NCBI GenBank assembly: GCA_003142595.1
Contig: PLMU01000006.1
Coordinates: forward strand, 128,840-192,839
Direction of reading: 5' to 3'
Length of the DNA: 64,000 bases
From: Phycisphaerales bacterium
GTDB lineage: Bacteria; Planctomycetota; Phycisphaerae; Sedimentisphaerales; UBA12454
A program made the translations under genes and the position numbers. This document shows positions 1 through 59,093 of the stretch, piece after piece (position 1 is the first letter of the stretch; each line of letters opens with the position of its first letter). Below the pieces are notes generated by a model, which saw only the letters and a list, made by a program, of their open reading frames with translations, made no database searches and was not told the origin of the DNA.

Positions 1-1369
1 TCCGAGCACGGGAAAAATCGGATTCTTTAAGATTATGTCTGTGTCGGGGGCATATTTTCACGGCGACCAGGCTCAAAAAATGCTGCAGCGAGTTTACGGC
101 ACTGCCTGGGCGACGAAAAAAGAACTCGACGATTATCTGCACAGGCTCGAAGAGGCGAAGAAACGCGACCATCGTTTCCTCGGCAAACAGCTGGATATTT
201 ACAGTGTGCACGACGATATTGGGCCGGGGCTGATACTGTGGCATCAGAACGGGTCGCTGATACGGCATATAATCGAGACGTTCTGGAAAGAGGAACATCT
301 TAAACGCGGATACGATATTATTTACACGCCGCACATCGCGACGGAAAAGATTTATCAGAAAAGCGGACATCTGGAAAAATACGCGGATATGATGTATTCG
401 CCGATGAAAATCGACGAGATGAATTATTATCTCAAGCCGATGAATTGTCCGGGGCATTATATGATTTATAATAACAGTCCGCGGAGCTATCGGGATTTGC
501 CGATGCGGTTTTGCGAGCTGGGGATGGTGTATCGTTATGAGCCGAGCGGGACGCTGCATGGGATGCTGCGGGTTCGCGGGTTTACGCAGGACGATGCTCA
601 TACGTTCTGCACGCCGGGGCAGCTGGGGCAGGAGCTTGACCTGATTCTTGAATTGATGAATTTTATGATGACGACTTTCGGATATACTTATAAAGCGTAT
701 CTGGCGACTCGGCCGGCGAAGTTCCTGGGTACGGAAGAGGAATGGGACCGGGCGACAAAAGAATTGCGGCTGGCGATGGAGAGACGCGGGCTGAAATATG
801 AAGTCGATGAAGGCGGCGGTGTGTTTTACGCGCCGAAGATTGATATTAAGCTGATTGATTCGCTGGGGCGCGAATGGCAGGGGCCGACGCACCAGGTTGA
901 TTTGCAGGCGGCCAAGCGATTCGATATTAGATATGTCGGAGAAGATAATGCGCTGCACGAGCCGGTGATTATTCATCGGACGGTGCTGGGCAGTATGGAG
1001 CGGTTCATCGGTGGGCTGATTGAGCATTATGGCGGTAATTTCCCGCTGTGGCTGTCGCCGGAGCAGATGAGGGTGCTGACAATCAGCGAAAAGTCAAACG
1101 ATTACGCTCAAAAGCTGCACCAGAGATTGAAAGCTGAAGGATTGCGGTGCGGGATTGATATGTCCGATGAAAAAGTCGGAGCGAAAATTATCCGGGCGCA
1201 TAATGCAAAGATACCTTATATGCTTGTCGTAGGTCCAAAAGAGGCGCAGACGGAAAGCGTAAGTGTCAGGATTCGCGGAAGCAACGAAAACAAGAGCGTC
1301 GGAGTTGAGCAATTTGCCGCCGCGGCGAAAGAGAAAATTACTTCTAAAACACAGGATATAAATTTATAA
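1..1369 (+). CDS. thrS: threonyl-tRNA synthetase, 5' end outside the window
   Basis: Charges tRNA-Thr with threonine in the cytoplasm (class II aaRS). The frame is open to the first bases of the window and reads PSTGKIGFFKIMSVSGAYF, typical of the junction before the ThrRS catalytic core. The ATG at 35 is therefore internal, and the N-terminal TGS and editing domains lie upstream. The class II core follows, with MNCPGH (bases about 437-454) carrying the zinc-binding Cys, FRCELG-like motif 2, and a late HRTVLGSMERFIGG motif 3. The C-terminal anticodon-binding domain begins near base 1030. It ends 41 bp before infC, the widely conserved thrS-infC-rpmI-rplT order. About 455 residues are visible of a usual 600 to 650. 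Confidence 0.97.
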   Translation, partial: PSTGKIGFFKIMSVSGAYFHGDQAQKMLQRVYGTAWATKKELDDYLHRLEEAKKRDHRFLGKQLDIYSVHDDIGPGLILWHQNGSLIRHIIETFWKEEHLKRGYDIIYTPHIATEKIYQKSGHLEKYADMMYSPMKIDEMNYYLKPMNCPGHYMIYNNSPRSYRDLPMRFCELGMVYRYEPSGTLHGMLRVRGFTQDDAHTFCTPGQLGQELDLILELMNFMMTTFGYTYKAYLATRPAKFLGTEEEWDRATKELRLAMERRGLKYEVDEGGGVFYAPKIDIKLIDSLGREWQGPTHQVDLQAAKRFDIRYVGEDNALHEPVIIHRTVLGSMERFIGGLIEHYGGNFPLWLSPEQMRVLTISEKSNDYAQKLHQRLKAEGLRCGIDMSDEKVGAKIIRAHNAKIPYMLVVGPKEAQTESVSVRIRGSNENKSVGVEQFAAAAKEKITSKTQDINL

Positions 1370-1410
1370 CAGGATGCTTATAAAATTATTGAGATTGAAA
1401 GGAAAATAAT

Positions 1411-1926
1411 ATCAGTAAGATAAAACTCAGAGTCAACGGGCAAATCAGCGCCAATCCGGTCCGCCTCATATCGGCGGATAACGCTCAAATTGGAGTTGTG
1501 AGCATAAGTGAGGCTATTGAACAGGCCAAACAGGCAGAACTGGATTTGGTTGAGATTGCTCCGGAAGGCACCCCGCCGGTGTGCAGGATAATGGATTTCG
1601 GCAAGTATCTGTATGCGCTGAAAAGAAAAGAAAAACAAAATATGAAAAAGCAGCATGTAGTTACTTTGAAAGAAATCCGGCTGCGGCCAAAGACCGACCC
1701 GCACGACTGCGAAACGAAAGTGAACCACGCCCGCGAATTTTTCAAGAAGGGACACAAGGTGCAGTTTACGATGATGTTCAAGGGACGCGAGATGATGCAT
1801 CTTGAGCTTGGACAGGCGATGATGAATAAAATTGTCGCATCGCTGGAAGATGTCGCAAAAGTCGAACATCCGTCATCTATACTGGGCAAAAGATTGACCG
1901 TGATAATGTCACCCAAGCAGCCTTAA
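1411..1926 (+). CDS. infC: translation initiation factor IF-3 (AUC start codon)
   Basis: IF-3 binds the 30S subunit, prevents premature 50S joining and proofreads start-codon choice. The 171-aa reading SKIKLRVNGQISANPVRLI onward is the normal IF-3 N-domain, followed by the linker and C-domain (VTLKEIRLRPKTDPHD). An in-frame TGA lies at 1396-1398, and no ATG, GTG or TTG occurs before GTG 1498, which would delete most of the N-domain. The start must therefore be the ATC at 1411 (ATA at 1420 is a weaker choice), preceded by AAAGGA at 1398-1403. Rare AUU/AUC/AUA starts are a known feature of infC, where they let IF-3 repress its own translation. The same autoregulation is inferred here. Confidence 0.95.
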   Translation: MSKIKLRVNGQISANPVRLISADNAQIGVVSISEAIEQAKQAELDLVEIAPEGTPPVCRIMDFGKYLYALKRKEKQNMKKQHVVTLKEIRLRPKTDPHDCETKVNHAREFFKKGHKVQFTMMFKGREMMHLELGQAMMNKIVASLEDVAKVEHPSSILGKRLTVIMSPKQP

Positions 1927-1957
1927 GAACAAAGGCGAAGAAAACAAAAGTAAGTTG

Positions 1958-1986
1958 TTGACGTTGCGACGAAAGGTTGCTAAAAT
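1958..1986 (+). promoter_or_regulatory. sigma70-type promoter for rpmI-rplT-pheS
   Basis: TTGACG (1958-1963), a 17-bp spacer and TAAAAT (1981-1986) lie between infC and rpmI, predicting a start near 1993. This gives the ribosomal protein genes a transcript independent of thrS-infC. Confidence 0.6.
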
Positions 1987-2030
1987 ACTAATCTTTAATT
2001 TTTAAAACAAGAGATGTAAGGTTTAGAAAT

Positions 2031-2228
2031 ATGCCAAAGATGAAAACCCATAAGGGATTGAAGAAACGCGTAAAAGTAACGGCCAGCGGTAAAGTTATGG
2101 CTCATAAGAGCTGTAAGGGGCACCTGATGACTGGAAAATCGGCCAAAAGGCGCCGCCGACTGGATAAACCAATGATCATTACCGAAGTATATGCAAAATG
2201 TATGCGGGAAATGCTCAACCAGCATTAA
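2031..2228 (+). CDS. rpmI: 50S ribosomal protein L35
   Basis: Small basic 65-aa protein of the large ribosomal subunit. The start [13 protein letters not shown] and the segment [15 protein letters not shown] are the conserved L35 signature, and the length is normal. It sits 104 bp after infC, behind its own promoter-like sequence, and 23 bp before rplT. L20-dependent autoregulation of this operon is known in other bacteria. No L20-binding mimic was identified here. Confidence 0.97.
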
Positions 2229-2251
2229 TACATTAATAAAGGAAGGCTGAT

Positions 2252-2608
2252 ATGCCACGAGTAAAAAAAGGGTCAGCAACCCGAAAAGCAAGAAAACGAG
2301 TTATGAAACGCGTAAGCGGCCACCGCGGTGACGCCAGCAGGAATTACCATCTTGCCAAAGAGAGCGGAATAAGGTCAGAAGTATTCGCCAGAGTCGGACG
2401 CAAACAAAAGAAAAGACAGTTCAGAAGACTATGGATAATACGATTGAACGCAGCCTGCAAAATGCGCAAAATCAGCTACAGCCTGTTCGTCAACGGCTGC
2501 AAAAAAGCCGTTATCGGGCTTAATAGAAAAATGCTCAGTGAAATAGCAATCGCCGACCCGGCCGCTTTCGATGTCATAGTTGAAAAGGCGCGAGCCGCTT
2601 GTGCTTGA
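2252..2608 (+). CDS. rplT: 50S ribosomal protein L20
   Basis: Early assembly protein of the 50S subunit that binds 23S rRNA. The 118-aa product has the usual L20 form: a very basic N-terminal extension (MPRVKKGSATRKARKRVMKR) and a globular C-domain with FRRLWIIRLNAACK. A GGAAGG Shine-Dalgarno lies 6 to 11 bp before ATG 2252. The 3' end overlaps the pheS start, suggesting translational coupling. Confidence 0.97.
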   Translation: MPRVKKGSATRKARKRVMKRVSGHRGDASRNYHLAKESGIRSEVFARVGRKQKKRQFRRLWIIRLNAACKMRKISYSLFVNGCKKAVIGLNRKMLSEIAIADPAAFDVIVEKARAACA

Positions 2609-3599
2609 GAAATTCAGACAAATCGGTAGGGAAGCTCTTGAATCGCTCAAAAAAGTAACGAACCCGGCACAACTCGAAGAATACCGCATCAAATTCCTTT
2701 CACGAAAAGGAGCGGTAACAGAAATGTTGAGTCAAATCGGACAAGCCCTTCCTGAACAGCGAAAAGAGGCGGGGGCACTTGCCAATAAAATCAAACAGGA
2801 AGTAACCGAGGCATTCGAACAACTCAAAACAACTCTGCAAGGCGCAGGTGCACAAGGTGCACAAAAAGGACCTGTCGTCGATGTAACTTTGCCGGGGATG
2901 GAATTTGAAAAAGGCAAGGCACATATCATAACGCAAACCATAAATGAACTGCTCGAAATATTCGGCAGAATGGGATTCGCTATCGCATACGGGCCGGAAG
3001 TTGAAGACGAGTGGCATAACTTTGTCGCGCTGAATATACCGGCCGGACATCCTGCAAGAGACCCATCAGATAATTTCTGCATTGATAATAATAAACTGCT
3101 GCGAAGCCAGACATCGACAATTCAAATCCGCACGATGGAAAAACAAAAGCCGCCGATAAGAGTTGTCGCACCGGGCAGAGTTTACCGGCCTGATACAGTT
3201 GACGCGACGCATATGTTTATGTTTCATCAGCTCGAAGCTCTTGTCGTCGATGAAGGCATCTCAATGGTCGATATGAAAAGCACAATCGCACAGTTTATTA
3301 GCGTGTTTTTCGGAAAAGACGTCAAGTGGAGACTTCGGCCGAGCTTTTTCCCGTTCACTGAGCCAAGCGCGGAAGTGGATTTACTGTTTGTCGCGAATGA
3401 CGGCACTGAAAAATGGATTGAAGTCGGCGGATGCGGAATGGTTGACCCAAATGTGCTTAACGCGGTCAATATCGACAGCGAAAAATATACCGGCTGGGCG
3501 TTCGGATTCGGAATCGAACGGCTTGCAATGCGAAAATACGGCATTACCGATATCAGACTATTCATCGAAAACGATATTCGCTTTCTTAAACAGTTCTAA
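2601..3599 (+). CDS. pheS: phenylalanyl-tRNA synthetase alpha subunit
   Basis: Catalytic alpha subunit of the (alpha-beta)2 PheRS. It has an N-terminal coiled-coil, the class II core with PGRVYRPDTVDATH and FHQLEALVVDEG, motif 2 (WRLRPSFFPFTEPSAEVD), and motif 3 (GFGIERLAMRKYG) near the C-terminus. The frame also opens at TTG 2580. GTG 2601 is preferred because it gives an 8-bp overlap with rplT and the usual PheS beginning. The beta-subunit gene pheT, which normally follows, is absent: the next gene is convergent, and its 3' end overlaps pheS by 14 bp. PheT must be encoded elsewhere. Confidence 0.95.
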   Translation: MLEKFRQIGREALESLKKVTNPAQLEEYRIKFLSRKGAVTEMLSQIGQALPEQRKEAGALANKIKQEVTEAFEQLKTTLQGAGAQGAQKGPVVDVTLPGMEFEKGKAHIITQTINELLEIFGRMGFAIAYGPEVEDEWHNFVALNIPAGHPARDPSDNFCIDNNKLLRSQTSTIQIRTMEKQKPPIRVVAPGRVYRPDTVDATHMFMFHQLEALVVDEGISMVDMKSTIAQFISVFFGKDVKWRLRPSFFPFTEPSAEVDLLFVANDGTEKWIEVGGCGMVDPNVLNAVNIDSEKYTGWAFGFGIERLAMRKYGITDIRLFIENDIRFLKQF

Positions 3600-4386
3600 T
3601 TCCTTTTGCGGCGCGGCGTTCTGCGGTTTTTGATTCAACTTCCTTTGTAAATAATTCTTTATCAATTGGGATTTGCTGCTGAGATAGATAAGAGGTTAAA
3701 AAATGCGTTTTGTCTGCATCGGTTAAACTTTCACGAAGCATATTTATCTGCACAAGGTTTTTTATTCTTAACCTCATAGGCAAATTATTGAATTTTTTCG
3801 TCCTCTCATTGTCGAGAAAAATAAAATCGTATTTACCATCTTGTTTTTTAACTAAAACGTTGCCGAGGCGTAAATCGCCATGGCAAAAGCCCTGGTCGTG
3901 CATCCTGCCGACGGTTTGGCCGAACTGCTCCATCAACTCTCGTTTTTCAGAATCCGTCAGTTTAATGAACAATTGGTAAATAGGCAGGCAATCCTGAACC
4001 TCGGTTGTGATTAGAAAATCAGCGATTACTAAACCGGCGAAAGATTTTTGACATAAGGCAACGGCGGGGGGAGTTGAAAACCCTTTTTCTCTCAGCATTC
4101 GGCCGGCCTTGAAGGCCCTGTCGGCTCTTGTGGAAATAAGGTTTTTTAGAATATCGGGAAAATTGCGATTGAGATAACGCTTGAGGACGAGATGATATAC
4201 TTTCGCTCTGAATAAAACAGAGAATTTTAAAACGGAGGCGAATTTTGAGGATGTCAGTTTTTCAAAAGAGCTTCTGTGCCCGTTGGGAAGCTGAACATCG
4301 GATAAAAATACAGACTCAAAACCGGAGGGGAAATCATCAGCGAGTTTAATCTTCCAGCCGGCGAGTTTGACTGTATGATAATTCAT
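3586..4386 (-). CDS. lipopolysaccharide core kinase-like protein (WaaP/InaA type)
   Basis: Predicted cytoplasmic protein-kinase-fold enzyme phosphorylating a sugar of the LPS core. The 266-aa protein has a plausible ATP lysine near residue 69 (LVLKRYL), the catalytic loop HGDLRLGNV at 169-177, and an Mg-binding-type Asp near 192 (FIFLDNERT). ATG 4386 is chosen because longer readings run back into lpxI. It is the last gene of the lpxD-lpxI operon, 5 bp after lpxI, which supports a lipid A/LPS role. The 3' end overlaps convergent pheS by 14 bp. The exact substrate cannot be told from sequence. Confidence 0.75.
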   Translation of the reverse strand: MNYHTVKLAGWKIKLADDFPSGFESVFLSDVQLPNGHRSSFEKLTSSKFASVLKFSVLFRAKVYHLVLKRYLNRNFPDILKNLISTRADRAFKAGRMLREKGFSTPPAVALCQKSFAGLVIADFLITTEVQDCLPIYQLFIKLTDSEKRELMEQFGQTVGRMHDQGFCHGDLRLGNVLVKKQDGKYDFIFLDNERTKKFNNLPMRLRIKNLVQINMLRESLTDADKTHFLTSYLSQQQIPIDKELFTKEVESKTAERRAAKGIRTV

Positions 4387-4391
4387 GTCTT

Positions 4392-5228
4392 TTAATAACC
4401 CAGAACAGCGATGCCGAGTTTGTCGGCGAGGGCAATCGTTTCGGGCTTGTCGATAATGATTGTTTTTCCTGCTTCGACGACCAAACACGAGCCGCCGTTT
4501 TGCGATAGGGCTTTGATTGTATCGGGTCCGACACAGGGGACGTCGAAACGCAAATCCTGGTCGGGCTTGGAGGCCTTTAAAAGAGTCCAGGCGCCTTTTT
4601 TGCAGGATTGGCCTGCGCGGGCAATCATTTTTTCGGTGCCTTCGATGGCCTCGACGGCAATTACGACTTTTTCCTTAACGGCGATGACCTGCCCAATGCC
4701 CATTTGTGCGATTGATTTTAAAAGCGGCCAGCCAAAGTCGATATCCTGCTGAATGTCGGCGGGGGGCTTAATTTTCGTCATTACGCCTTTGGCGGCTAAA
4801 TGCTCTTTACAATATTTTGTCGAGTCCTGCAAAATAATACCTCCGCAGGCAAGCTCATCGGCCAAAGCCTGCAACATCACCTGGTCAGTTTTATTTTTTT
4901 TCCTCAGACGCCAGTAAAAAATTCTCAACGCCCGCCAGTCGGGCAGATATTTTAAAATCCGCCAGGGCGTAAAAAGTTTGTCCTTGTGAACCTTGCCGAC
5001 CAAAATGGCGTCGGTAACACCCTGTTTTTTTAACTTTCTAATCCAGGCGCCCGGACGGGCAAGCGGAACCTGCTCGTAATAATCAACGCCCTCAGCAAGG
5101 CCGGGATCGGGATTGTCGCCAAGGCCGGTGCAAACGACGCGGCAGCCTGCCTGCTTTGCGCCCTGAGCAACGAGAAAGGGCAGCCTTCCTGCGCCCGCTA
5201 TCAGACCTATTATTTTTTTATCACTCAT
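4392..5228 (-). CDS. lpxI: UDP-2,3-diacylglucosamine pyrophosphatase LpxI
   Basis: Hydrolyses UDP-2,3-diacylglucosamine to lipid X and UMP, the fourth step of lipid A synthesis, in lineages that lack LpxH. The 278-aa protein matches the LpxI/DUF1009 pattern: GLIAGAGRLPFLVAQGAKQAG at the N-terminus, VGKVHKDKLF near residue 97, and a C-domain with GVMTKIKPPADIQQDIDFGWP and VPCVGPDTIKAL. The start overlaps the lpxD stop by 8 bp, so the two are translationally coupled. This places two consecutive lipid A functions in one operon. Confidence 0.93.
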   Translation of the reverse strand: MSDKKIIGLIAGAGRLPFLVAQGAKQAGCRVVCTGLGDNPDPGLAEGVDYYEQVPLARPGAWIRKLKKQGVTDAILVGKVHKDKLFTPWRILKYLPDWRALRIFYWRLRKKNKTDQVMLQALADELACGGIILQDSTKYCKEHLAAKGVMTKIKPPADIQQDIDFGWPLLKSIAQMGIGQVIAVKEKVVIAVEAIEGTEKMIARAGQSCKKGAWTLLKASKPDQDLRFDVPCVGPDTIKALSQNGGSCLVVEAGKTIIIDKPETIALADKLGIAVLGY

Positions 5229-6237
5229 TATTAGAGGATTTTTTAAGGCGGCTAATTGCTTTTTTCATTTCCGGCAGGTCCTGGATTAAACTGTAAGCGC
5301 GTCTTGCCGTTGCGGCATCGATTGCCGGTGCGCCGACGACAGACTGGCCATCGGGAATATCGTTTATCACGCCGGCCTGAGCTGCAATCATAACGCAATT
5401 TCCGATTTTAATGTGTCCGACAATGCCGGCCTGAGCGGCAATAACGCAGTGATGACCGATTGTCGTAGAGCCGGCAATGCCAATCTGGCCTACAAACAAA
5501 CAGTGAGGACCCACCTTTGCGCCGTGACCGATATCGATAAGGTCGCCGAATTTGCAGCCTTTGCCGATAATCGTATCGTCAATAGCGCCTCGCTGGATGC
5601 AGCAATTTGCGCCGATTTCAACGTCGTCTTCGATTATAGCTTTTCCGATTTGCGGAATTTTGTGGTGTATGCCTTCGTATGTCGAGTAGCCGTAGCCGTC
5701 TTTGCCGATTGATGAATTAGAATTAATGATAACGTTGTTGCCAAGTATGCTGCCATCGTAAATCACAGCATTCGGATACAGTATGCAGTTATTGCCGATT
5801 TTTGCATCTGGGCCGACGAATGCGCCGGGATAGATTATGGTATTTTCGCCGATAACGGCGTTGTCGCATACGGTTGCGAAATCGTAAATGTTGCAGCCTT
5901 TACCAATGCGGGCTGTTTCGGCAATCGAGGCTTTTTTCGAGATGCCGGTTTGTTTGTGCTGCCTGTGGCCGTAAAGAAGGATAGTGATTTGGGCATAGGC
6001 GTAATACGGGTCTTCGGCGATGAGCAGCGAGGCCGGGCATGGCATGTCTTTGCCGACAATTACCGCACCGGCTTTTGTAGTTGCAACGGCCTTTTCATAT
6101 TTGGGATTTGAGAGGAAACTTATGTCCGAAGAGATTGCGCTGTCGAGGGTCGCGACTGCGGAAATTAACATTTTGTCGTCGCCCTTGACCTTGCCGCCTA
6201 CATGCTGGGCCAGTTGTCCTAAAGTTTTAGTCTGCAT
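5221..6237 (-). CDS. lpxD: UDP-3-O-(3-hydroxyacyl)glucosamine N-acyltransferase LpxD
   Basis: Transfers a 3-hydroxyacyl chain from acyl-ACP to the 2-amino group of UDP-3-O-acylglucosamine (third lipid A step). The 338-aa protein has the N-terminal uridine-binding domain (SAVATLDSAISSDISFLSNPKY), then a long left-handed beta-helix of hexapeptide repeats from about residue 105. The region DIGHGAKVGPHC carries the His expected as catalytic base. ATG 6237 is used because AAGG lies about 6 bp upstream. A TTG 30 bp earlier is possible. A C-terminal helix follows the helix domain as usual. Confidence 0.95.
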   Translation of the reverse strand: MQTKTLGQLAQHVGGKVKGDDKMLISAVATLDSAISSDISFLSNPKYEKAVATTKAGAVIVGKDMPCPASLLIAEDPYYAYAQITILLYGHRQHKQTGISKKASIAETARIGKGCNIYDFATVCDNAVIGENTIIYPGAFVGPDAKIGNNCILYPNAVIYDGSILGNNVIINSNSSIGKDGYGYSTYEGIHHKIPQIGKAIIEDDVEIGANCCIQRGAIDDTIIGKGCKFGDLIDIGHGAKVGPHCLFVGQIGIAGSTTIGHHCVIAAQAGIVGHIKIGNCVMIAAQAGVINDIPDGQSVVGAPAIDAATARRAYSLIQDLPEMKKAISRLKKSSNNE

Positions 6238-6294
6238 TCGTGCCTTTTTTGTCCTTAATTCAAACAAATCATTATAACGCTTAATTACACAGGG

Positions 6295-6310
6295 TCAAGC
6301 ACTTAAGAAT
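6295..6310 (+). repeat. 16-bp direct repeat, copy 1
   Basis: TCAAGCACTTAAGAAT here is identical to 7117-7132, the last codons and stop of the GT9 gene. It lies just upstream of lpxD. The two copies bracket the PEP-CTERM gene, as expected if an insertion duplicated the GT9 3' end. Confidence 0.85.
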
Positions 6311-6363
6311 CGTTATTTGAAAGGGGAAAAACTATGCAGACCTGATAGAAATTGTAAGGATTA

Positions 6364-7005
6364 TTAACGCGATTTTCTTAAAAGAAGCGTTCCGATACTG
6401 AATAGTAAAAGTGTGGCTGGTTCAGGTATTAAAACTGCTGAAGTTACCGTAGCGCCTATGAAAAAATAATCCGAACCATAACCCGGACCACTAATAGACA
6501 AATCATTGTAAGCCCAGTCAGATAAAACAGGTGCTGTTGTCGGTAATGCTGTACTCGATAACGCGGTTCCCGTGTTGTCTATAAGTTGCCAATATATGCT
6601 ATCAACTTTGGCACCATTATCCAAGTCGTTGTTATTGTAGCTGCACCACGAATACCCGTCTCCTGGGATATCTGGAGAATCGTTCACAATCGTCATACGA
6701 AAATCTACATTATAGATATTAGTATAAAAAACTAACTCGTCAATATTTAAAGTTATTCCGCATGAACTGCTATTGTAGGAATACCCGCCAATAAATGATG
6801 TAGGATTTGTATCCAGTGTATCCGTGTCATAAGTATAAGAGCCTGTGATTGTGCTGCCGACGGTAACTTTCCCTTCGAGATTATAACCGTTAGTTACATT
6901 ATTCACCACCGCTTCAATGCCAATGGTAATTAACTGTCCATTAGAAACAGCAGGCAAAAATGCGCAAACCAGAAATGCAAAAATTATTCCTACTAACTTC
7001 TTCGT
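6364..7005 (-). CDS. PEP-CTERM sorting-domain protein with probable ACG start
   Basis: Predicted secreted protein whose C-terminus carries the exosortase sorting signal: PEPATLLLF, a hydrophobic stretch, then RKSR. The middle is Ser/Thr/Asn/Gly-rich with no recognised domain. The first standard start in frame is TTG 6957, which would remove the secretion signal. Reading back in frame gives TKKLVGIIFAFLVCAFLPAVSNG, a good signal peptide, from ACG 7003-7005, with a perfect AAGGAGG ending 5 bp before it. In-frame stops lie further upstream. The start is thus an ACG codon, a mutated ATG or a base error. It is a single gene between LPS genes, flanked by 16-bp direct repeats. Confidence 0.8.
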   Translation of the reverse strand, partial: TKKLVGIIFAFLVCAFLPAVSNGQLITIGIEAVVNNVTNGYNLEGKVTVGSTITGSYTYDTDTLDTNPTSFIGGYSYNSSSCGITLNIDELVFYTNIYNVDFRMTIVNDSPDIPGDGYSWCSYNNNDLDNGAKVDSIYWQLIDNTGTALSSTALPTTAPVLSDWAYNDLSISGPGYGSDYFFIGATVTSAVLIPEPATLLLFSIGTLLLRKSR

Positions 7006-7116
7006 AAATACCTCCTTAAAATACTGTAACTATTATACATCATTGATTACATTAAAACAATATAATAGTTATAAGAATAGTATTTATAGCGGGTTGCGAT
7101 TGGTGGGATTACTCAA

Positions 7117-7132
7117 TCAAGCACTTAAGAAT
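7117..7132 (+). repeat. 16-bp direct repeat, copy 2
   Basis: Identical to 6295-6310. On the minus strand it encodes the end of the GT9 protein (KFLSA and the TGA stop). Confidence 0.85.
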
Positions 7133-8190
7133 TTAAGGGCGGCACGGCTGACGATGCCGACCGCATCGGGTGAGGGCTTTTGAAAATCAGAAGGGTCGAA
7201 TTTGAAGGTTTTTGTCTTTGGGCCGAGGGGTGAGTAAATATCAGGATTTGTCGGGCCAAAGCAGGTAATCGCGGGAATACCGCAAGTCGAGGCGATATGC
7301 GCGACGCCGGTATCGTTGCCGACAAAGCAGCCGGCACAGCAGAGGAGCTGGAATGTCTGGGTAAGCGAGAATTCAGTCAGCAGCGGGGCAAGGGCGGATA
7401 ATCTGTCGATGGTTTTTTTGTTGAAACGCTCCAGTTCGGCAGGGCCGAGAAGGAAAATTACTGTTTCGCCGGCTTCGAGCAGCTCTTCGGCCAATAAATA
7501 AAAATTATCTATATGCCAGCATTTTTTTTCGCCGCCGGAGCCGGGATGGATTATGGCGGGTTTGTCTTTTTTCTTTAAGCCGAGCGAATCGAGAACCTTG
7601 CGACCCGCGGCAAGGTCGGATTTGAGAGGTTTTAGATATTTTTTCTTATCGACGGTGAAACGGGGCTGCGATTTGCGATGTCTGTAATCTGGGCAGGAGG
7701 AGCAAATTGAATCGATATAAAATTTCGTGATGTGATGCTTGTAACCGGCAGAAGGCTTTAGCGGGAGAGTAACGACTTCAACGGCGTTGCTGCAGTTTGC
7801 GGTAAAAATCAGGTTGTGCTCGAAGTCATCGCCGGCCGAGCCGAGGAAAGTAAAGATATACTGGAATCCCGCGAAGGCGGTTATGATCGGGTCGCCGTCC
7901 GGGATTTCAAAATCTTTTTTAGCAACGAAAAGCCTGTGCAAATCGACGGAGTCGAGGTCTCTTATACTGTCGATGCCGCTGCGGGTCGGGAAATATTCCA
8001 TATAGTTACTTCTGCCGAGAATGGTGATAGTGCCGATGTTGAGAGTTTTTTTCAGGAACTGCGCAATCGGCAGTGTCAGGACGCAATCGCCTATCGCGCC
8101 GGGCTGAATAATCATGGCGCGGTTGGCGGTCTTGCGTGATTCTTTTTCGGCGGAAGATAAAATATTCAAAATATCGCGTTCTTTGTTCAT
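7117..8190 (-). CDS. GT9 family glycosyltransferase (heptosyltransferase-like)
   Basis: Predicted cytoplasmic GT-B enzyme adding a heptose or related sugar to the LPS core. The 357-aa protein shows IQPGAIGDCVLTLPI near residue 28 (the GT9 N-terminal acceptor/phosphate loop), HPGSGGEKKCW near 215, and the donor-site motif FVGNDTGVAHIASTCGIPAI near 290, followed by CFGPTNP. Its ATG overlaps the mnmA stop by 4 bp (ATGA). Before the PEP-CTERM insertion it would have lain about 60 bp from lpxD, which fits a role in lipopolysaccharide assembly. Confidence 0.88.
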   Translation of the reverse strand: MNKERDILNILSSAEKESRKTANRAMIIQPGAIGDCVLTLPIAQFLKKTLNIGTITILGRSNYMEYFPTRSGIDSIRDLDSVDLHRLFVAKKDFEIPDGDPIITAFAGFQYIFTFLGSAGDDFEHNLIFTANCSNAVEVVTLPLKPSAGYKHHITKFYIDSICSSCPDYRHRKSQPRFTVDKKKYLKPLKSDLAAGRKVLDSLGLKKKDKPAIIHPGSGGEKKCWHIDNFYLLAEELLEAGETVIFLLGPAELERFNKKTIDRLSALAPLLTEFSLTQTFQLLCCAGCFVGNDTGVAHIASTCGIPAITCFGPTNPDIYSPLGPKTKTFKFDPSDFQKPSPDAVGIVSRAALKFLSA

Positions 8191-9257
8191 TCGCTTAGAG
8201 CCTTGTCAATCCATGCGCCGCCGGCCATTTTAAGGCCGAGAGGCGTTTGGAGATAATAAACAACAGCCTGGCCGGGCGTTACCGCTCGCAGAGGCTGGTC
8301 GAATTCTACTTTTACACAATTTTGCTGCGGGTAAACCGTTCCATTAACCGGCTTGTGATTATAACGTATTTTTATTTTCGCCGCAAATGGCCGGGTCGGA
8401 ATATCAATAAGCCAATTGGGACCGGAGGCAAGAAGCGATTTGCAAATCAGGTCTTCTGCAGGGCCAAGCGTTACGGTGTTTGTAATGCTGTCGAGTTTTG
8501 TAACATACCAGGGAATGCCCATAGCGACTTTTGCGCCTCTGCGCTGGCCGATAGTGAAATTATGAATGCCGGTATGCGTGCCGAGGATTTTGCCGGCGGT
8601 GTCGATAATATTTCCCTGCCGGGCGACGTCGGGGCAAAGCTGGCAGAGTTTTGCGGCGTAATCGTTGTCGGGGATAAAACAAATCTCCTGTGAATCGGCT
8701 TTATCGCTTACTGAAAGACCAAGTTTTTTTGCCATTTGACGGGTTTGCTCTTTGTTGTCGAAATCGCCGAGCGGAAAAATCAGAAAGGGCAGGACTGAGC
8801 GGTTTATCATCGCAAGGGCATAAGACTGGTCTTTTGCGGTATTGGCGGTATAAAGAGCAGGGCCGGCGGAGTCGTGGTGAATGGCGACATAATGGCCGGT
8901 AGCGAAAAAATCGGCGCCGTTTGCTCTTGCGTAATCGAACAATTTTCCAAATTTAATGAGACGGTTGCACAGGACGCAGGGATTGGGGGTTCGGGCGCGG
9001 CTGTATTCGCCGCAAAAATAATCGAGAATTGTTTTAAAGTCCTCTCTTAAATCCAGTGCCTGGAAATTAATGCCGAGTTGTTTTGCGATATTACGGGCAT
9101 CGTCGCAGTGCCGCTCGGCGTGGTCGTGGACAATCATAAAAACGGCGGTGCAGTCGCATCCTGCCTCGAGGAGCAGCGCGGCAGCGGTAGAGCTGTCAAC
9201 TCCGCCGCTGGCCGCGACAAAAACTTTTTTGCCTTTTATTGACTTTGTATTATCCAA
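8187..9257 (-). CDS. mnmA: tRNA-specific 2-thiouridylase MnmA
   Basis: ATP-dependent sulfur transfer to U34 of tRNA-Lys, Glu and Gln. The 356-aa protein has the PP-loop SGGVDSS near residue 18, the sulfur-relay cysteines in NPCVLCNRLIKFG and SQEICFIPDND, GHYVAIHH between them, and a C-terminal beta-barrel domain ending TPGQAVVYYL. The length matches the family. It is embedded in an envelope operon, 21 bp after the AsmA-like gene and overlapping the GT9 gene. Confidence 0.96.
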   Translation of the reverse strand: MDNTKSIKGKKVFVAASGGVDSSTAAALLLEAGCDCTAVFMIVHDHAERHCDDARNIAKQLGINFQALDLREDFKTILDYFCGEYSRARTPNPCVLCNRLIKFGKLFDYARANGADFFATGHYVAIHHDSAGPALYTANTAKDQSYALAMINRSVLPFLIFPLGDFDNKEQTRQMAKKLGLSVSDKADSQEICFIPDNDYAAKLCQLCPDVARQGNIIDTAGKILGTHTGIHNFTIGQRRGAKVAMGIPWYVTKLDSITNTVTLGPAEDLICKSLLASGPNWLIDIPTRPFAAKIKIRYNHKPVNGTVYPQQNCVKVEFDQPLRAVTPGQAVVYYLQTPLGLKMAGGAWIDKALSE

Positions 9258-12593: not shown

Positions 12594-13550
12594 TTATTTC
12601 AAGGAGCCGATTAGTTCAGCGACAGCGGTAATGTTTTGCCGCCGCAGGTAGTCCTTTATCCCCTGAATAATTTTAACCGCACAATCAGGATTGATAAACC
12701 CACCGGTCCCGATAGTTACGGCTGTCGCGCCGGCAATGATAAACTCAATAGCATCGGATGCGGTTCTAATTCCTCCGCCGCCGATTATAGGAACGCCTGC
12801 CGGTTTGGCGACCTCGTTGTAAACTTTGTTCACAAGATAAACCGCAATCGGCTTTATGGCAGGGCCTGAAAGGCCGCCGGTGCGGTTGGCCAGAACCGGC
12901 TTTTGGGTCTCAATATCAATTACCATCGCGGTAAAAGTATTAACCAGACTCAGGGCATCGGCGCCGCATTCAACCGCTGCGCGGGCGATTGCGCTGATGT
13001 CAGTTACGGACGGCGTAAGTTTGACGACGAGGATTTTGTCGCGGACGACTTTTTTTACCTCGGTTGTAATCTGGCGGACAAGAGCGGGGTCTGTGCCGAA
13101 AGTTATGCCGCCTTGCTTGACATTGGGACAACTTATATTTAATTCCAGACCTGCTATTCGGCGGCATTGTGAAAGTTTGTCGGCAACGGCGAGGTATTCA
13201 TCGATGGTCTGGCCGGCGATATTTACAAAGAATGGAGTTTTATACCGCTCCATCATCGGAACTTTTTCCTGGATGAATTTTTCGACGCCGATATTGGCAA
13301 GGCCGATGGCGTTGAGCATTCCCGAATCGGTTTCGACAATCCGCGGGACATCATTGCCAAGCCGGGGCTTTATGGTAATACTTTTTGTTATAAAAGCGCC
13401 GAGCTGATTTATATCAAGAAAATCATCGAGCTCATCGACGTAGCCGCACGTGCCGGAAGCCGTTATCAGCGGGTTTATGAGGCTGACTTTGCCGAGATTA
13501 ACCGAGAGGTTAACTGAAAGATTAATATCGTTGTTTTTCTTTATTCCCAT
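12594..13550 (-). CDS. pyrD: dihydroorotate dehydrogenase, class 1B catalytic subunit
   Basis: Oxidises dihydroorotate to orotate in pyrimidine synthesis using FMN. With PyrK it uses NAD+. The 318-aa protein shows NPLITASGTCGY (FMN site), KSITIKPRLGNDVPRI, NISCPNVKQGG with the catalytic Cys characteristic of class 1 enzymes, KLTPSVTD, and the C-terminal phosphate site PIIGGGGI. The first ATG overlaps the pyrK stop by 10 bp. Direct coupling with pyrK identifies the class 1B (heterotetrameric) type. Confidence 0.95.
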   Translation of the reverse strand: MGIKKNNDINLSVNLSVNLGKVSLINPLITASGTCGYVDELDDFLDINQLGAFITKSITIKPRLGNDVPRIVETDSGMLNAIGLANIGVEKFIQEKVPMMERYKTPFFVNIAGQTIDEYLAVADKLSQCRRIAGLELNISCPNVKQGGITFGTDPALVRQITTEVKKVVRDKILVVKLTPSVTDISAIARAAVECGADALSLVNTFTAMVIDIETQKPVLANRTGGLSGPAIKPIAVYLVNKVYNEVAKPAGVPIIGGGGIRTASDAIEFIIAGATAVTIGTGGFINPDCAVKIIQGIKDYLRRQNITAVAELIGSLK

Positions 13551-16232: not shown

Positions 16233-17093
16233 ACGTAGCCTCCCGATGCGTCGGGATCTACGCTTCGCTTCGACGCTACGGCTCCGACAAAGGCACAAAG
16301 ACACGAAGAAATTTTAAATTTCAAATTTTGACGTAAGTCATTAGAAAAAAAATTTTATTTTTTTATAACTCCTTATTTCAGGTTTCTAAACAAGCTTTAA
16401 GTCTTTATTTTATTTTGAAAAATAAGGACTTATAAAAATCCGATCGAACAAAAGTGATCTTTTTTTTAACAAAGCGCGCAAGTTCTTGCGCGAAATATTC
16501 TTTTTTTTTCGACACATTTCCAAAATTCATTAAAAAGTGACCCAAATCGAGGTCGTTTTGAGGCAAAATTGAGAGAAATTCATACAAACTTATGAAAAAA
16601 ACTGGCTAAATCACAAGTTTTTGGGTGCGAGATTGGGAAATCTTTAATATCCATAATTACGGTAGCCACGAAGGCACAAAGACACAAATAATTTAGACGC
16701 GGATTGCGCGGATGACGCGGATTTTTTTAACCACGAATAAACACGAATGAACACGAATTTTCACCACGAAGGCACGAAGTTATTGCTTTAAGGCGTCCCT
16801 TAGGGATAATAAATTCAAAGCTTATGCCTTACTTACAAGCGAGCTTGACGTCGGCATTTCACTTTGAATTTTACTGCTGCGCAGACTTGCCTTAAAGCAA
16901 TTGCATGATGGTTTTGCTGAAGCAAAAAAGATAATTTAAAAGTATTGAAGCGGGGGATAAAAGTCGGGGGTCGTTAGTCCCGCCTGTCCGTCTCGCCAGA
17001 GGCAAGCAAGCTGAGGCGGGTAAATTTTGTCGTTGAGTTTGGGAAAATTATGGATGAAGCAACAGAGGAAATTTGGAAATAGGGAAACGTCCA
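16233..17093. other. 860-bp non-coding stretch with foldback sequences
   Basis: No convincing gene. It contains an IR next to dacB (TCCCGATGCGTCGGGA at 16241-16256, enclosed by CGTAGC/GCTACG at 16234 and 16275), very A/T-rich DNA with a GCGC-rich palindrome near 16473-16490, degenerate CACGAAGGCACRAAG-type repeats (16660-16780), a large nested foldback (16782-16901) and a CCCGCCT/AGGCGGG palindrome (16979-17020). Confidence 0.7.
16782..16901. repeat. nested 120-bp foldback element
   Basis: The outer 13-bp arms ATTGCTTTAAGGC (16782-16794) and its complement (16889-16901) enclose a 10-bp pair (16811-16820 with 16862-16871), a 4-bp pair (16825-16828 with 16853-16856) and a CAAG-CGAG-CTTG tetraloop stem near 16835. 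Each side also has a mini-stem (TCCC-TTA-GGGA near 16796). This is consistent with a multibranched RNA or a MITE/REP-like element. The family is unrecognised. Confidence 0.6.
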
Positions 17094-17313: not shown

Positions 17314-18507
17314 CTACTCCAATTTCCAACCTGAGTTGAATGTAATATGCTCGAATCCAACTTGTGGAAGTGATTTTAATAAATTATTAAGAACGGCTTG
17401 AGCGGCAGCATTCAAGCACTGTTGCACGGTTACTTGAAAAATAGCTTGAACAAGATTATTAAGTTGTGTCGGATCAAGACCCGCTGGCAAATTGGATATA
17501 TTAATTGGCGGCAAGGTAATATTGCCAAGAGAAATATTTATATTAGGCGGTATACTTCTTAGCTTTTTAACCTTGAGAGACTTTCGACATACATCAAAAC
17601 GTGAATTGCTTTCAATACAGGCGGAAGGTAAGTTTTCCCAAGTATACTCTTCAAGATTATTTATTATAAGATGTTCTTCTGGTAAAAAAGGATTCTCAAG
17701 CTGAAAAAATTCACGATACTCAAGATAAAGGTTCCAAAGATCTTCTTCGAGACCAACGGATTCAGCATTTATTACTTGCTTTAATCCGAGATATTTTAAA
17801 GCTTCCGTTTTATTAATAGCGTGATTATGTGAATATAATTCTGATGATAATTTTTTAATAATATCTTTGTTTTCTTCCTCCGTAAAAGGTTTTGCACGTG
17901 TATCGAGCAATCGACGACCAACTAATTTTGTTTCTTCTAATAGTCGATTTACTGCTCCTAGTGCCAACGGGTGAACTTGTGAAATTAATTCTTTAATGCC
18001 ATTCATTTTTTCCAAAGGAGTTTCGCGATTTATCCGTTCAATCAAAGCAAAATATCCATTTACGTCTTCCACAGACAATGGCAATCTGGTATTAGTGTTT
18101 CCCTCTTTTGGATTATATGGGCCATTCATAATTGTTGCATCTATTGGACCAAGCTCGGCTTTTTTGGTCATGATAATTTCATCGGCACCGAGGGCAACAA
18201 CGGTTGCTGCGCTATGCGCACGATAAGGGATCAAAACATTAAAATCTCCTTTGTGGCAATATTCGCGAAACATCGAAACTATAGTCCAAGGGACGTCACT
18301 TTGTCCACCTCGGCTATATATGAATAGGTCAAGTCTGTCGTTTTTGTCAGCTTTTAAAGATAATAGATGATCATGTATTATTGAAACAGTATCGCCAGCT
18401 ATTTGTGCAGCTAGATTGGTACGGTCACTCGTTATGTACGCAATGACCTTCGACTTCCGTTTTCCTTCTATCTGTTTTATTAATGCTAGTCGGGACTCTC
18501 TTGACAT
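17314..18507 (-). CDS. serine dehydrogenase proteinase-like protein (SDH protease, ClpP/crotonase fold)
   Basis: A 397-aa protein of the SDH_protease type, related to ClpP and SppA. Residues about 18-170 carry the fold: VIAYITSDR, LDLFIYSRGGQSDVPW (oxyanion/structural Gly segment), AHSAATVVALGADEIIM with the candidate nucleophile Ser, then KAELGPIDATI. The middle is helical. The C-terminal 90 residues are low-charge, rich in Asn, Leu and Pro (PPNINISLGNITLPPINISNLP), and may mediate assembly. No signal peptide is seen. The function of this family is poorly known. It is unlike the neighbouring housekeeping genes. Confidence 0.75.
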   Translation of the reverse strand: MSRESRLALIKQIEGKRKSKVIAYITSDRTNLAAQIAGDTVSIIHDHLLSLKADKNDRLDLFIYSRGGQSDVPWTIVSMFREYCHKGDFNVLIPYRAHSAATVVALGADEIIMTKKAELGPIDATIMNGPYNPKEGNTNTRLPLSVEDVNGYFALIERINRETPLEKMNGIKELISQVHPLALGAVNRLLEETKLVGRRLLDTRAKPFTEEENKDIIKKLSSELYSHNHAINKTEALKYLGLKQVINAESVGLEEDLWNLYLEYREFFQLENPFLPEEHLIINNLEEYTWENLPSACIESNSRFDVCRKSLKVKKLRSIPPNINISLGNITLPPINISNLPAGLDPTQLNNLVQAIFQVTVQQCLNAAAQAVLNNLLKSLPQVGFEHITFNSGWKLE

Positions 18508-29778: not shown

Positions 29779-29828
29779 TAAAAAATTGAAAGACCCGAAT
29801 GAAAAAATGCTAACTGAAAGGAGTGAAA

Positions 29829-30980
29829 ATGTTTGAGAAAAAAATTTCACTATTCAGTATGTTCGGGTTCAAAGTCAGCCTTGACATCACCTGGTTTATC
29901 CTGGCAATTCTTATAGTATGGTCTCTGGCAAAGGGAGTATTTCCGGAAGATTACCACGGGTTAAGTGCGTCGGTGTATCTGTGGATGGGCATTGTCGGAG
30001 CTATCGGGCTTTTCGCATCTATAGTATTTCATGAGTTTTGCCATTCGATAGTCGCCAGACATTATGGGATTCCAATGAAAGGCATCACGCTTTTCATATT
30101 CGGCGGAGTGGCCGAGATGTCAGATGAGCCGCCGAGCGCCAAGGTAGAATTCCTGATGGCGATTGTCGGGCCATTGTCGAGTTTTGTTCTGTCGGGTATT
30201 TTTTACCTGCTGGCGATGGTGAGCAATAAAACAGGCTTGCCGGTGCCGATATATGGAGTACTGTATTATCTTGGCTGGCTGAATTTTGTATTGGCGGTGT
30301 TCAACCTGATACCTGCATTTCCGCTCGACGGCGGGCGCGTGCTTCGTTCAATTCTTTGGGGAGCAAAGGGCAACCTCAAATGGGCGACACATATAGCATC
30401 GAATATGGGCTCGGGCTTCGGAATTATTTTAATGGCACTTGGAGTAATCAGCTTTATCGGAGGCAACTTTGTCGGCGGATTATGGTCTTTCCTGATAGGA
30501 ATGTTCATTCGCGGCGCATCCCAGATGTCCTACAGGCAGATGGTAATCAGAAAAGCATTAATAGGCGAACATATCGAAAGATTTATGACGCCCGAACCGG
30601 TAACAGTGCTGCCGTCGCTTAGCATAACAGGACTTGTGCAGGACTATTTTTACAGGTATCATTATAAAATGTTTCCAGTTGTGGAAAATGGCAGCGTCAA
30701 AGGATGTATAACAACCAAAGAAGTAAAAGAGATTCCACAAGAGCAGTGGAGCAGGTATACTGTCGGAAATTTGGTTAAGCCCTGTTCGAATGAAAATACC
30801 ATTTCGCTGCAGGATGATGCGGTTAAGGTTCTGTCGCTTATGAATCAGACAGGAAACAGCAGGCTGATGGTTATGGACGGCGAAAAGCTTGCAGGCATTG
30901 TGACGCTTAAGGATTTGCTGCAGTTTTTATCGCTGAAAATAGACCTTGAAGAAAAAGAAGAAGTCAAAATGCCATTTTAG
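29829..30980 (+). CDS. site-2 protease (M50) with CBS domains
   Basis: Membrane metalloprotease for intramembrane cleavage. About 383 aa: a first membrane segment (LDITWFILAILIVW), the zinc motif HEFCH in FHEFCHSIVARHYG, a partner site NLIPAFPLDGGRVLRS, six membrane segments in all, and two CBS domains from about residue 245 (ERFMTPEPVTVLPSL and NQTGNSRLMVMDGEKLAGIVTLKDLLQF) that may sense a nucleotide. ATG 29829 is favoured by AAAGGAG directly upstream. A GTG 6 bp earlier is possible. Confidence 0.9.
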   Translation: MFEKKISLFSMFGFKVSLDITWFILAILIVWSLAKGVFPEDYHGLSASVYLWMGIVGAIGLFASIVFHEFCHSIVARHYGIPMKGITLFIFGGVAEMSDEPPSAKVEFLMAIVGPLSSFVLSGIFYLLAMVSNKTGLPVPIYGVLYYLGWLNFVLAVFNLIPAFPLDGGRVLRSILWGAKGNLKWATHIASNMGSGFGIILMALGVISFIGGNFVGGLWSFLIGMFIRGASQMSYRQMVIRKALIGEHIERFMTPEPVTVLPSLSITGLVQDYFYRYHYKMFPVVENGSVKGCITTKEVKEIPQEQWSRYTVGNLVKPCSNENTISLQDDAVKVLSLMNQTGNSRLMVMDGEKLAGIVTLKDLLQFLSLKIDLEEKEEVKMPF

Positions 30981-46691: not shown

Positions 46692-48281
46692 CTACTGATG
46701 ATTAGCAGATAGTTCAGAGAGAAGTTTTTTAGCACCGGTGTGGTTCGGATTTATTTTCAATTCTTCTTGAAGATGTTTAATCGCCCCTGCGGTATCATTC
46801 TTAGCAAGAAATACTGTTGCAAGATTGTAATTAGCATCAGGATACTTTGGATTGATTTTCAGAGTCTCTGTCCAGTAGTAAATTGCTTTTTCCCTATCGC
46901 CTTTAAAATAATAGGCCATTCCAAGATTATAGCACGGCCTGTCATAATTCGGCCGAATACGCAGCGACTCAAGTCCGTTCTTTATAGCGGCATCGTAATC
47001 TCCTTTTTGACCAAACGCATTGGAAAGGTTGCTATACGCTAAATAATTATTTTGAGTAACTTGCGTGGCGTGTTCAAAAAGTGTGATGCTGCTGCGCCAA
47101 AAGCCCGCCTGCCTGTAAGTACAAACCATCAGTGCAGAAATTATAACAGCAGCCGAGACGGCAGAAATCCGGATGCCGTATCGCAGTTTGCCGAATAACT
47201 CAGCACCGCCAAATGATACCATTATAAATAAACCAATCAGGGGAACGTATGTGTATCTGTCGGCCATTGCCTGCGAACCGACCTGAATAATGCCGATGAC
47301 AGGGACAAGCGTTCCAACAAACCAGAACCAGCCTACGAGTAAATACTTTTGATTGCGTCCAAGGTAAACCACAAAAATAGATATGCCAAGCAGCAGCAAA
47401 ACACAGGCCGCGACCTGCCAGAATGGAATTCTTTCGGTGCTAAAAGGATAAAATACCGCAAGATTTTGCGGCCAGAACATCTTACCTATATATTGAGCGT
47501 ATGATAAGAAGACGTTGGCGATTCTGCCGTTCAAAGAAAAGGCATCGATATCGGTCATCGCTGTGTTTTGCTGAACTAAAAAGGTGATAATGCTTGAGAT
47601 AACCGAAAGTGCAAAGAAGGGAATTTTTTCAACCAGCAGATGCCGGGATATTTTTCGCTGGAACGGCCAATAGTCCAAAAGTAAAAGCACAAAAGGAAGA
47701 GTAACGAGCATCGGCTTTGCCATAAGGCCCAAAGCGAAAATTAATAAGACAAGCAGGTATCGCGCGGTGTTCGGCTGTTTGACATACCGCACATACGTCA
47801 ACATTGCAAGCAGCCAAAAGAAAGTACTTAAAACGTCCTTTCGTTCAGCAATCCAAGCAACGGATTCAACGTGCAGCGGATGAAGTGCAAAGAGAGCTGC
47901 GACAAATGCGCTTTGCCAAAGAGCGCCTGTCATTTTCTTAAGAACCATAAAGAGCAGCAAAATGTTTGCGATGTGAAGGATAAGATTTGTGATGTGAAAT
48001 CCTGCGGGATTGACGCCAAATAATTGCCGGTCAAGCATAAGCGACAGCCAGGTTAAGGGATGCCAGTTTGACGCCTGGTTGGTCGTAAAAGCCCATTGGA
48101 CATTCTGCCAGGACAATCCCGTCAGAACAGCGTTATTTCCGGTAACATAATCGTAGTCATCGTAATTAATAAATTCGTGACTTCTTACCTGGGCAAAAAC
48201 TGCCAACACCATAGATGTTAGAACAAGACATATTAAAATGACACGTGAGCGACCGTTAATTATGTAGAGATTCTTTATCAT
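46692..48281 (-). CDS. GT-C-type membrane glycosyltransferase with TPRs, paralogue 4
   Basis: A 529-aa protein with about 11 membrane segments in the first 380 residues and a short C-terminal TPR set (SNAFGQKGDYDAAIKNGLES, PDANYNLATVFLAKNDTAGAI). The first periplasmic loop has the acidic GT-C signature NYDDYDYVTGNN and WHPLTWLSLMLD. Later comes FALHPLHVESVAWIAERKDV. It is related to bacterial O-mannosyltransferase-like proteins that use a polyprenyl-linked sugar. Donor and acceptor are unknown. The tract 47567-47735 is nearly identical in DNA to paralogue 3. Confidence 0.8.
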   Translation of the reverse strand: MIKNLYIINGRSRVILICLVLTSMVLAVFAQVRSHEFINYDDYDYVTGNNAVLTGLSWQNVQWAFTTNQASNWHPLTWLSLMLDRQLFGVNPAGFHITNLILHIANILLLFMVLKKMTGALWQSAFVAALFALHPLHVESVAWIAERKDVLSTFFWLLAMLTYVRYVKQPNTARYLLVLLIFALGLMAKPMLVTLPFVLLLLDYWPFQRKISRHLLVEKIPFFALSVISSIITFLVQQNTAMTDIDAFSLNGRIANVFLSYAQYIGKMFWPQNLAVFYPFSTERIPFWQVAACVLLLLGISIFVVYLGRNQKYLLVGWFWFVGTLVPVIGIIQVGSQAMADRYTYVPLIGLFIMVSFGGAELFGKLRYGIRISAVSAAVIISALMVCTYRQAGFWRSSITLFEHATQVTQNNYLAYSNLSNAFGQKGDYDAAIKNGLESLRIRPNYDRPCYNLGMAYYFKGDREKAIYYWTETLKINPKYPDANYNLATVFLAKNDTAGAIKHLQEELKINPNHTGAKKLLSELSANHQ

Positions 48282-48284
48282 AGC

Positions 48285-57020: not shown

Positions 57021-57508
57021 ATCTGATTTCTGTATTCTTTCGAATTCTATCCCCCGCTTTCAATTGGCTTCAATAACAAAAAAAGATCGAAGCGTTGGAG
57101 CCGCAGCGGAAACCCCCGTAGGGGGTAGCGTAGACCCCCGCCCTACTGAAGTTCTCCGATTTAATTTCGCAAGAAATTGCGGGGGCAGACTCCAGCAGCG
57201 TAGCAAAGACCCCGACGTCGAAGTCGTTGAAGCCGCAGCGTCGGAGTCACAACGGAGACCCCGTAGGGGCAAACCCCCGAAGTGGGCAATGTAGACCCCA
57301 GTGATTAGTTTTGTCCGTTGAAGCCGCAGCGCAAACCCCCGTAGGAGGCTGGCAAAACTGCAGGGGCATCGGGGCGTATTCTGCCTTACGCTCTTTTGCC
57401 TTTTTCCTTTCCTTTTCCCTGTTTAACGGTATAATACCAATCAAATTGAGATGAAACAACAAAGGAATTAAATGTATGGAATTAAATAAACACTTTACCT
57501 GAGGATAT
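57021..57508. repeat. gene-poor stretch with GTTGRAGCCGCAGCG repeats and island-edge repeat
   Basis: It holds the 33-bp direct repeat copy 1 (57051-57083), three of four copies of GTTGRAGCCGCAGCG (57094, 57226, 57317; the fourth is at 58916), and the segment ACTGAAGTTCTCCGATTTAA (57146; also 58946), plus C5/G5 runs. A TATAAT lies near 57431. No gene supported. Confidence 0.6.
57051..57083 (+). repeat. 33-bp direct repeat, left copy
   Basis: CCCCCGCTTTCAATTGGCTT followed by CAAYAACAAAAAA. The second copy lies at 62527-62559, with one substitution. Together they bracket a 5.4-kb accessory block. Confidence 0.75.
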
Positions 57509-57544
57509 ACGAAAATTTCTTTTGATGAGTCTAAAAAGTTCTTT

Positions 57545-58897: not shown

Positions 58898-59093
58898 ATT
58901 CGTCCCCCTCGGCCTGTTGGAGCCGCAGCGCAAACCCCCGCCCCACTGAAGTTCTCCGATTTAATTTTCTTTTCCACAGAAAAGGAAATTGCGGGGGGCC
59001 AAATCATTCACAACTCGTTTAACCCCTGCCCGATGTCCCTATCAAAGGAACATCTATCCCTAATTAATGTAAAATTAATCTAGAAATATGATT
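58898..59093. other. short repeat-bearing intergenic gap
   Basis: It holds the fourth GTTGGAGCCGCAGCG repeat (58916-58930) and the ACTGAAGTTCTCCGATTTAA segment, between two convergent genes. Confidence 0.55.

Follow-up and report, generated by a model that had tools for sequence, protein, structure and literature searches.

A PEP-CTERM gene between GT9 and lpxD in a planctomycete genome, probably gained by insertion with duplication of recipient sequence

The window, i.e., the whole 64,000-nucleotide stretch of a Phycisphaerales genome analyzed here, raises the question of how a single PEP-CTERM gene came to lie between a GT9 glycosyltransferase gene and lpxD without damage to either neighbor. 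Single-gene moves into bacterial operons without a mobile element are seldom caught at base resolution, and insertion with duplicated recipient DNA is a rarely described route of bacterial gene gain. The original prediction, drawn from the sequence alone, read the locus as a single-gene acquisition with a duplicated junction. This reading is supported by the empty sites of relatives and by the atypical composition of the insert.

The GT9-lpxD junction and its empty site

The features of the locus are as follows (window coordinates).

7117 to 8190, minus strand: GT9 glycosyltransferase gene (Glyco_transf_9), upstream of the insert
7117 to 7132, minus strand: direct repeat, GT9-side copy, with the final GT9 codons and stop
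6311 to 7116, minus strand: insert, absent from relatives (806 bp, 37.2% GC, without terminal inverted repeats)
7003 to 7017, minus strand: ribosome-binding site AAGGAGG (7017-7011) and ACG (7005-7003) at the expected start position, as read from the sequence
6364 to 7005, minus strand: PEP-CTERM protein gene (213 aa from ACG), with a putative signal peptide and a PEP-CTERM tail
6295 to 6310, minus strand: direct repeat, lpxD-side copy, carrying the TTGA of the lpxD -35 box
6271 to 6298, minus strand: lpxD promoter-like site TTGACC-16-TATAAT (11 of 12 matches), which recurs in the empty junctions of relatives
5221 to 6237, minus strand: lpxD, downstream of the insert, with its likely ATG start (the mechanical ORF extends to 6267)

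The sequence TCAAGCACTTAAGAAT occurs at 6295-6310 and again at 7117-7132 with 100% identity and a spacing of 822 bp, and its minus-strand reading is the end of GT9 (KFLSA*). The predicted 16-bp copy of the GT9 end upstream of lpxD was thus borne out, and scanning of both strands of the 2,278,388-base genome revealed just these two copies. Likewise, with the insert and one copy removed, the likely lpxD ATG (6237) would follow the GT9 stop after ~57 bp, close to the 60-bp gap foreseen. A weak extension of the repeat past the stop codon is possible, with almost no gain in score. Order-3 Markov simulations gave a chance expectation of ~0.2 exact repeats of at least 16 bp per 64 kb (spacings of 100 to 3000) and of 0.45 per 104 kb (spacings of 250 to 6000). 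In a separate null, a block shuffle of the downstream flank, the score of the window repeat was attained in 2 of 300 shuffles. The main argument, and a strong one, is position: the repeat falls on the junction that relatives define.

That junction was delineated by comparison between species, in a family set of 13 genomes (one per species, the window's own included). GT9 orthologues were found in 12 of the 13 (own genome counted). The arrangement to be looked for according to the original prediction, GT9 directly followed by lpxD, is present in 9 of the 12 other family genomes, with 12 to 101 bp between match ends. The three unscorable genomes have lpxI after GT9 (G011), a contig that ends there (G009), or no orthologue (G003). 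PEP matches were absent from all nine GT9-lpxD loci; the possibility, raised along with the prediction, that the PEP gene occupies this place in all relatives thus did not hold for any scorable one. The junction is AAATTCTTAAGTTCTTGACC in all five same-genus orthologues and AAGTGCTTGA in both window copies, which share a T-to-G change unseen in those five. What is a single copy in the empty junction of relatives is therefore present twice in the window. The empty site and the base change common to both copies indicate that the insert is recent and that its flanking repeat was copied from the recipient.

At the GT9 end, TTGA doubles as the start of the predicted -35 box TTGACC, 16 bp before TATAAT. 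Since the end and stop of GT9 and most of the lpxD -35 box lie within the same 16 bp, the duplication kept both genes intact: owing to this dual use of the junction, one copy terminates GT9 and the other retains the predicted lpxD promoter. An Rfam scan of 5200-8300 returned no match, and an RNA element at this place was rejected. The locus shows together an empty site, a duplicated junction, and a likely reason for its tolerance (a stop codon and a promoter box that overlap and were both preserved, on either side). It had escaped the original prediction that the duplicated junction is recipient sequence and contains a promoter box, and that the same signature is found at inserts with unrelated cargo.

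The PEP-CTERM gene of the insert

As anticipated, the exosortase-target gene is the only cargo: one minus-strand PEP-CTERM gene (TIGR02595) in 806 bp. The tail of its product (C-terminal PEP motif, hydrophobic stretch, and basic end) scored 18.7 bits against TIGR02595 (cut-off, 16) and 21.4 bits in the genome scan, and the protein matched no Pfam family at E 0.001. One exosortase is encoded in the genome (PF09721 at G000:C1:274374-275159; 186 bits), along with 29 PEP-CTERM matches; two relatives have 60 and 62. The composition check proposed for the insert revealed that it is AT-rich (37.2% GC) and that the GC3 of the PEP gene (0.341) is below that of 34 window genes (0.494 ± 0.043), compared with 0.446 ± 0.076 in the 29 PEP genes of the genome (the window gene counted among them). 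No donor copy was found, and a tree built from seven PEP relatives gave no resolution of the donor.

The open frame of the PEP gene contains a hydrophobic leader preceded by ACG and lacks a standard start codon: no ATG, GTG, or TTG lies upstream of the putative signal peptide, and the ACG sits 5 nt behind AAGGAGG. Should ACG serve as a start codon, export of the protein and its sorting by the single exosortase of the genome would follow. An ACG behind a perfect AAGGAGG, with a long frame kept, is seen in three PEP-CTERM genes (window, 7003-7005; L083 (G006:C29), ~5118-5120; and L090 (G006:C36), minus strand near 5145), and a fourth PEP-CTERM gene with such a leader (G006:C26) starts with ATG. 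No ACG start in a PEP-CTERM gene of bacteria turned up in our literature search; such a negative does not establish absence. PEP-CTERM genes with unrelated mature parts (L083, ~5030-5150; L090, minus strand ~5230-5100; L089, near 5090) resemble one another in promoter, ribosome-binding site, and signal-peptide leader, and C29 and C36 of G006 are almost identical in this region. Read from sequence, these likenesses look as if the PEP-CTERM leader were spreading as a module.

Inserts with the same anatomy and controls

At 1.9 kb to the left of the window in G000, the start of a channel-like gene is present in two identical 26-bp copies (18078-18103 and 18947-18972 of L267; G000:C1, left of the window) with an 843-bp insert between them; the joined flanks of this insert align contiguously to the sister genome G006, which has the empty site. 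The cargo is an MNT-type nucleotidyltransferase and a remainder that looks HEPN-like by eye and is spread over two frames. A 24-bp segment with the 3′ end and stop of a DUF819 gene is present in two exact copies (L267, 7568-7591 and 8857-8880), one on each side of a pair of FMN reductases that lies ~12 kb to the left of the window. Among six relatives, the DUF819 gene was found at the limit used in G002 only, with no FMN-reductase match after it; the right flank in G002 is not syntenic, so an empty site for this pair is unproven. Both inserts and the window lie within 104 kb. In the sister genome, a PEP relative (~50% identity; G006:C47) follows a 298-aa gene, and the 3′ end of that gene recurs at the PEP end (34 bp, 31 identical), this middle copy supplying the last codons and stop of the PEP protein. 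A third, decayed copy follows a 334-aa gene (its score was unattained in 2000 shuffles), and the order is thus gene-copy 1-PEP-copy 2-334-aa gene-copy 3 (L084, 4972-5005, 5733-5766, and ~6895-6922). The three copies of one gene end imply that two genes are stacked between them. G000 has the empty site, the sequence to the right of the inserts aligning from inside the 3′ end of the upstream gene. A PEP-specific mechanism was rejected, since similar junctions hold the FMN-reductase pair, the MNT-HEPN pair, and the 334-aa gene. That such junctions recur with unrelated cargo opens both the frequency and the machinery of the route to testing.

Two further repeats were observed in G006:C8. A tRNA-like 3′ end (by eye; ~41 bp) is duplicated at ~63089-63130 and ~64027-64067 (L265) around a small nucleotidyltransferase-like insert without an integrase. 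Beside the channel-like gene of the MNT-HEPN site, an exact 25-bp direct repeat (13467-13491 and 16998-17022) surrounds ~3.5 kb with a 759-aa ATPase-like gene and an opposite-strand ORF.

A long duplication is not universal among inserts. In G006, a PEP gene that entered between clpX and a sigma-factor gene shows none, and ~47 bp of the site were lost (the two flanking genes are 45 to 135 bp apart by match ends in the six other genus genomes). Comparison of the window with G006:C8 revealed seven other gene-size indels, one of them with a duplication (the tRNA-like 3′ end). At 13 related PEP loci, duplication was clear only in the window and G006:C47, with G006:C29 marginal. An unbiased automatic flank test of three stretches returned the window as the sole clean match, the rest falling in tandem paralogue arrays; the MNT-HEPN and FMN cases failed this test. 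The scan that found the MNT-HEPN duplication skipped tandem arrays (window 46-54.5 kb and 57.9-59 kb; G006:C8 72-79.5 kb). In a chosen set of stretches, flank repeats with scores of at least 15 occurred at 21 of 81 PEP loci versus 5 of 194 other genes, most of the PEP cases being, by inspection, tandem PEP neighbors. A flank scan of PEP loci covered all but 9 of 161 PEP matches. Finally, a segment of the 3′ end was repeated downstream in 7 of 280 non-PEP genes, compared with 4 genes for mid-gene segments, 3 for segments at either quarter point, and 1 for start segments. With homologous-neighbor genes removed, the counts out of the same 280 were 4 (3′ end), 0 (mid-gene), 0 and 1 (quarters), and 1 (start), one of the four 3′-end cases being an antisense ORF over a PEP array. 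The 3′-end excess is slight, i.e., suggestive and not strong.

Several repeats were set aside. The 54-bp repeat at G006:C26:74093 was not used as evidence, as two adjacent PEP genes are weakly homologous there (25% identity); the 3′ tails and terminators of these genes (L225; G006:C26:74093 and 74822) are nearly identical, in differing frames. The 23-bp repeat at window 57145/58945 was uncounted because it sits in repeated intergenic sequence; a TPR-like gene of 450 aa, itself containing 147-bp internal repeats, lies among short intergenic repeats at 57041-58967. Repeats of 24 bp (G005:C6) and 27 bp (G006:C46) are candidates. Elsewhere in the window, 46692-53900 is a tandem array of diverged paralogues (529 to 689 aa) common to G006, and the genes of a ClpP-like SDH-type protease (17314-18507) and an M50 peptidase (29823-30980) are absent at those places in G006, without junction duplication.

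Origin of the insert and comparison with known systems

We conclude that, in this lineage, a piece of DNA with the PEP-CTERM gene probably entered at the extreme end of GT9, with duplication of at least 16 bp of recipient sequence. The event is best read as an 'insertion with long target duplication', the cargo and the phylum being new and the kind known. It probably originated by break fill-in or by template switching, between which we make no choice. In the former, a staggered break with an overhang of 16 to 34 nt would be filled in while a foreign or paralogous fragment is captured; in the latter, a replication fork would switch to a donor copy and then back slightly upstream. The survivors would be only those events whose duplication preserved the stop codon and the overlapping -35 box, and the exact place of insertion would best be explained by such survival, because GT9 and lpxD would not both be spared without a duplication. 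The repeat copies would leave the insert removable via slippage or recombination between them. A broader proposal is that gene gain of this type is active and cargo neutral in these planctomycetes, with one- or two-gene pieces entering at gene ends with 16- to 34-bp recipient duplications, and stacking head to tail like cassettes at one 3′ end, by means of an undescribed break-repair or trans-acting recombination system; we put it forward as a tentative and rather unlikely one.

Other origins were weighed against insertion with duplicated recipient sequence. It is unlikely that a small circle was integrated, by a site-specific recombinase in trans or by a single crossover via short homology, with attL/attR-like copies remaining, as is seen for genomic islands at tRNA 3′ ends. 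Gene 3′ ends do account for three of the duplications, a small nucleotidyltransferase insert in G006 has the tRNA-like 3′ end on both sides, and the G006 ladder looks like serial integration. However, the duplicated sequences have no evident common core (by eye), that of the MNT-HEPN insert is a gene 5′ end, and the donor circle would be required to bear the identical 16 bp. No integrase was seen in the inserts, nor does one lie beside that of the window, where the cargo is the PEP gene and the neighbors are lpxD and GT9.

A mobile-element origin was rejected for lack of inverted ends, of shared ends, and of plasmid, phage, and viral relatives. An inverted end match like that of the insert was attained by 60 of 500 shuffles, four such inserts have neither terminal inverted repeats nor common end sequences, and relatives of the PEP protein were absent from plasmid, phage, and viral collections at the limits used. 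Accordingly, transposition by an insertion sequence or a nonautonomous derivative that makes long target-site duplications seems quite unlikely, even though duplications of 16 to 34 bp match the long-duplication group of IS1202-like elements (>15 bp) and the inserts are compact (0.7 to 1.3 kb). Described elements of that family have terminal inverted repeats and a large transposase, whereas reading of the ORFs revealed none resembling a transposase in the insert; moreover, the cargo changes from case to case, and the insert ends are present once (no second copy of the insert or its noncoding ends in 7 genus genomes, and only short partial matches elsewhere). It is very unlikely that the PEP gene is ancestral: direct repeats permit exact deletion, but losses would be required in all nine scorable relatives, from the nearest to the most distant, which parsimony disfavors, the same-genus relatives have one junction, with T and not G, and the composition is atypical. 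A chance repeat or an assembly artifact is hardly credible, for although the genome is a draft of 18 contigs and the repeat is short, the contig spans 357 kb, the family of the insert's protein is also contained in sister genomes, and the repeat lies exactly on the relatives-defined junction with a low chance expectation.

Insertion with duplicated recipient sequence, the reading that we favor, bears on how PEP-CTERM genes come to dozens of scattered places per genome. Our literature search found no PEP-CTERM insertion of such a sort, which is no proof of absence. The paralogous expansion of PEP-CTERM genes (Haft et al. 2006, PMC1569441) resembles the situation here in its many diverse genes per genome and its recent lineage-specific spread, and the accessible part of that paper gives neither a dispersal mechanism nor a junction structure. 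IS1202-family insertion sequences share with the window duplications of >15 bp in one group, but, according to the accessible text of PMC10132070, they have terminal inverted repeats and a transposase of 394 to 507 aa, both of which the window insert lacks. The transposed genes of Arabidopsis (Woodhouse et al. 2010, PMC2869330) are likewise single relocated genes with direct repeats that match the orthologous target of a sister species; unlike the window, these belong to a plant nuclear genome and to tandem gene families, and the authors, in the part of the paper available, favor circle formation and reinsertion. The closest kind is the insertion with long target duplication of Helicobacter pylori (Nobusato et al. 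2000, Gene 259:99, as told in PMC1643837 and PMC3154945). As recounted there, it has in common with the window a polymorphic gene insert, no noted transposase, direct repeats of the recipient site, and detection via related genomes. The H. pylori inserts are described as often associated with restriction-modification genes and were seen by comparing two strains, whereas the inserts considered here, from comparisons between species of Planctomycetes, hold a PEP-CTERM gene, an FMN-reductase pair, an MNT-HEPN pair, or a secreted protein.
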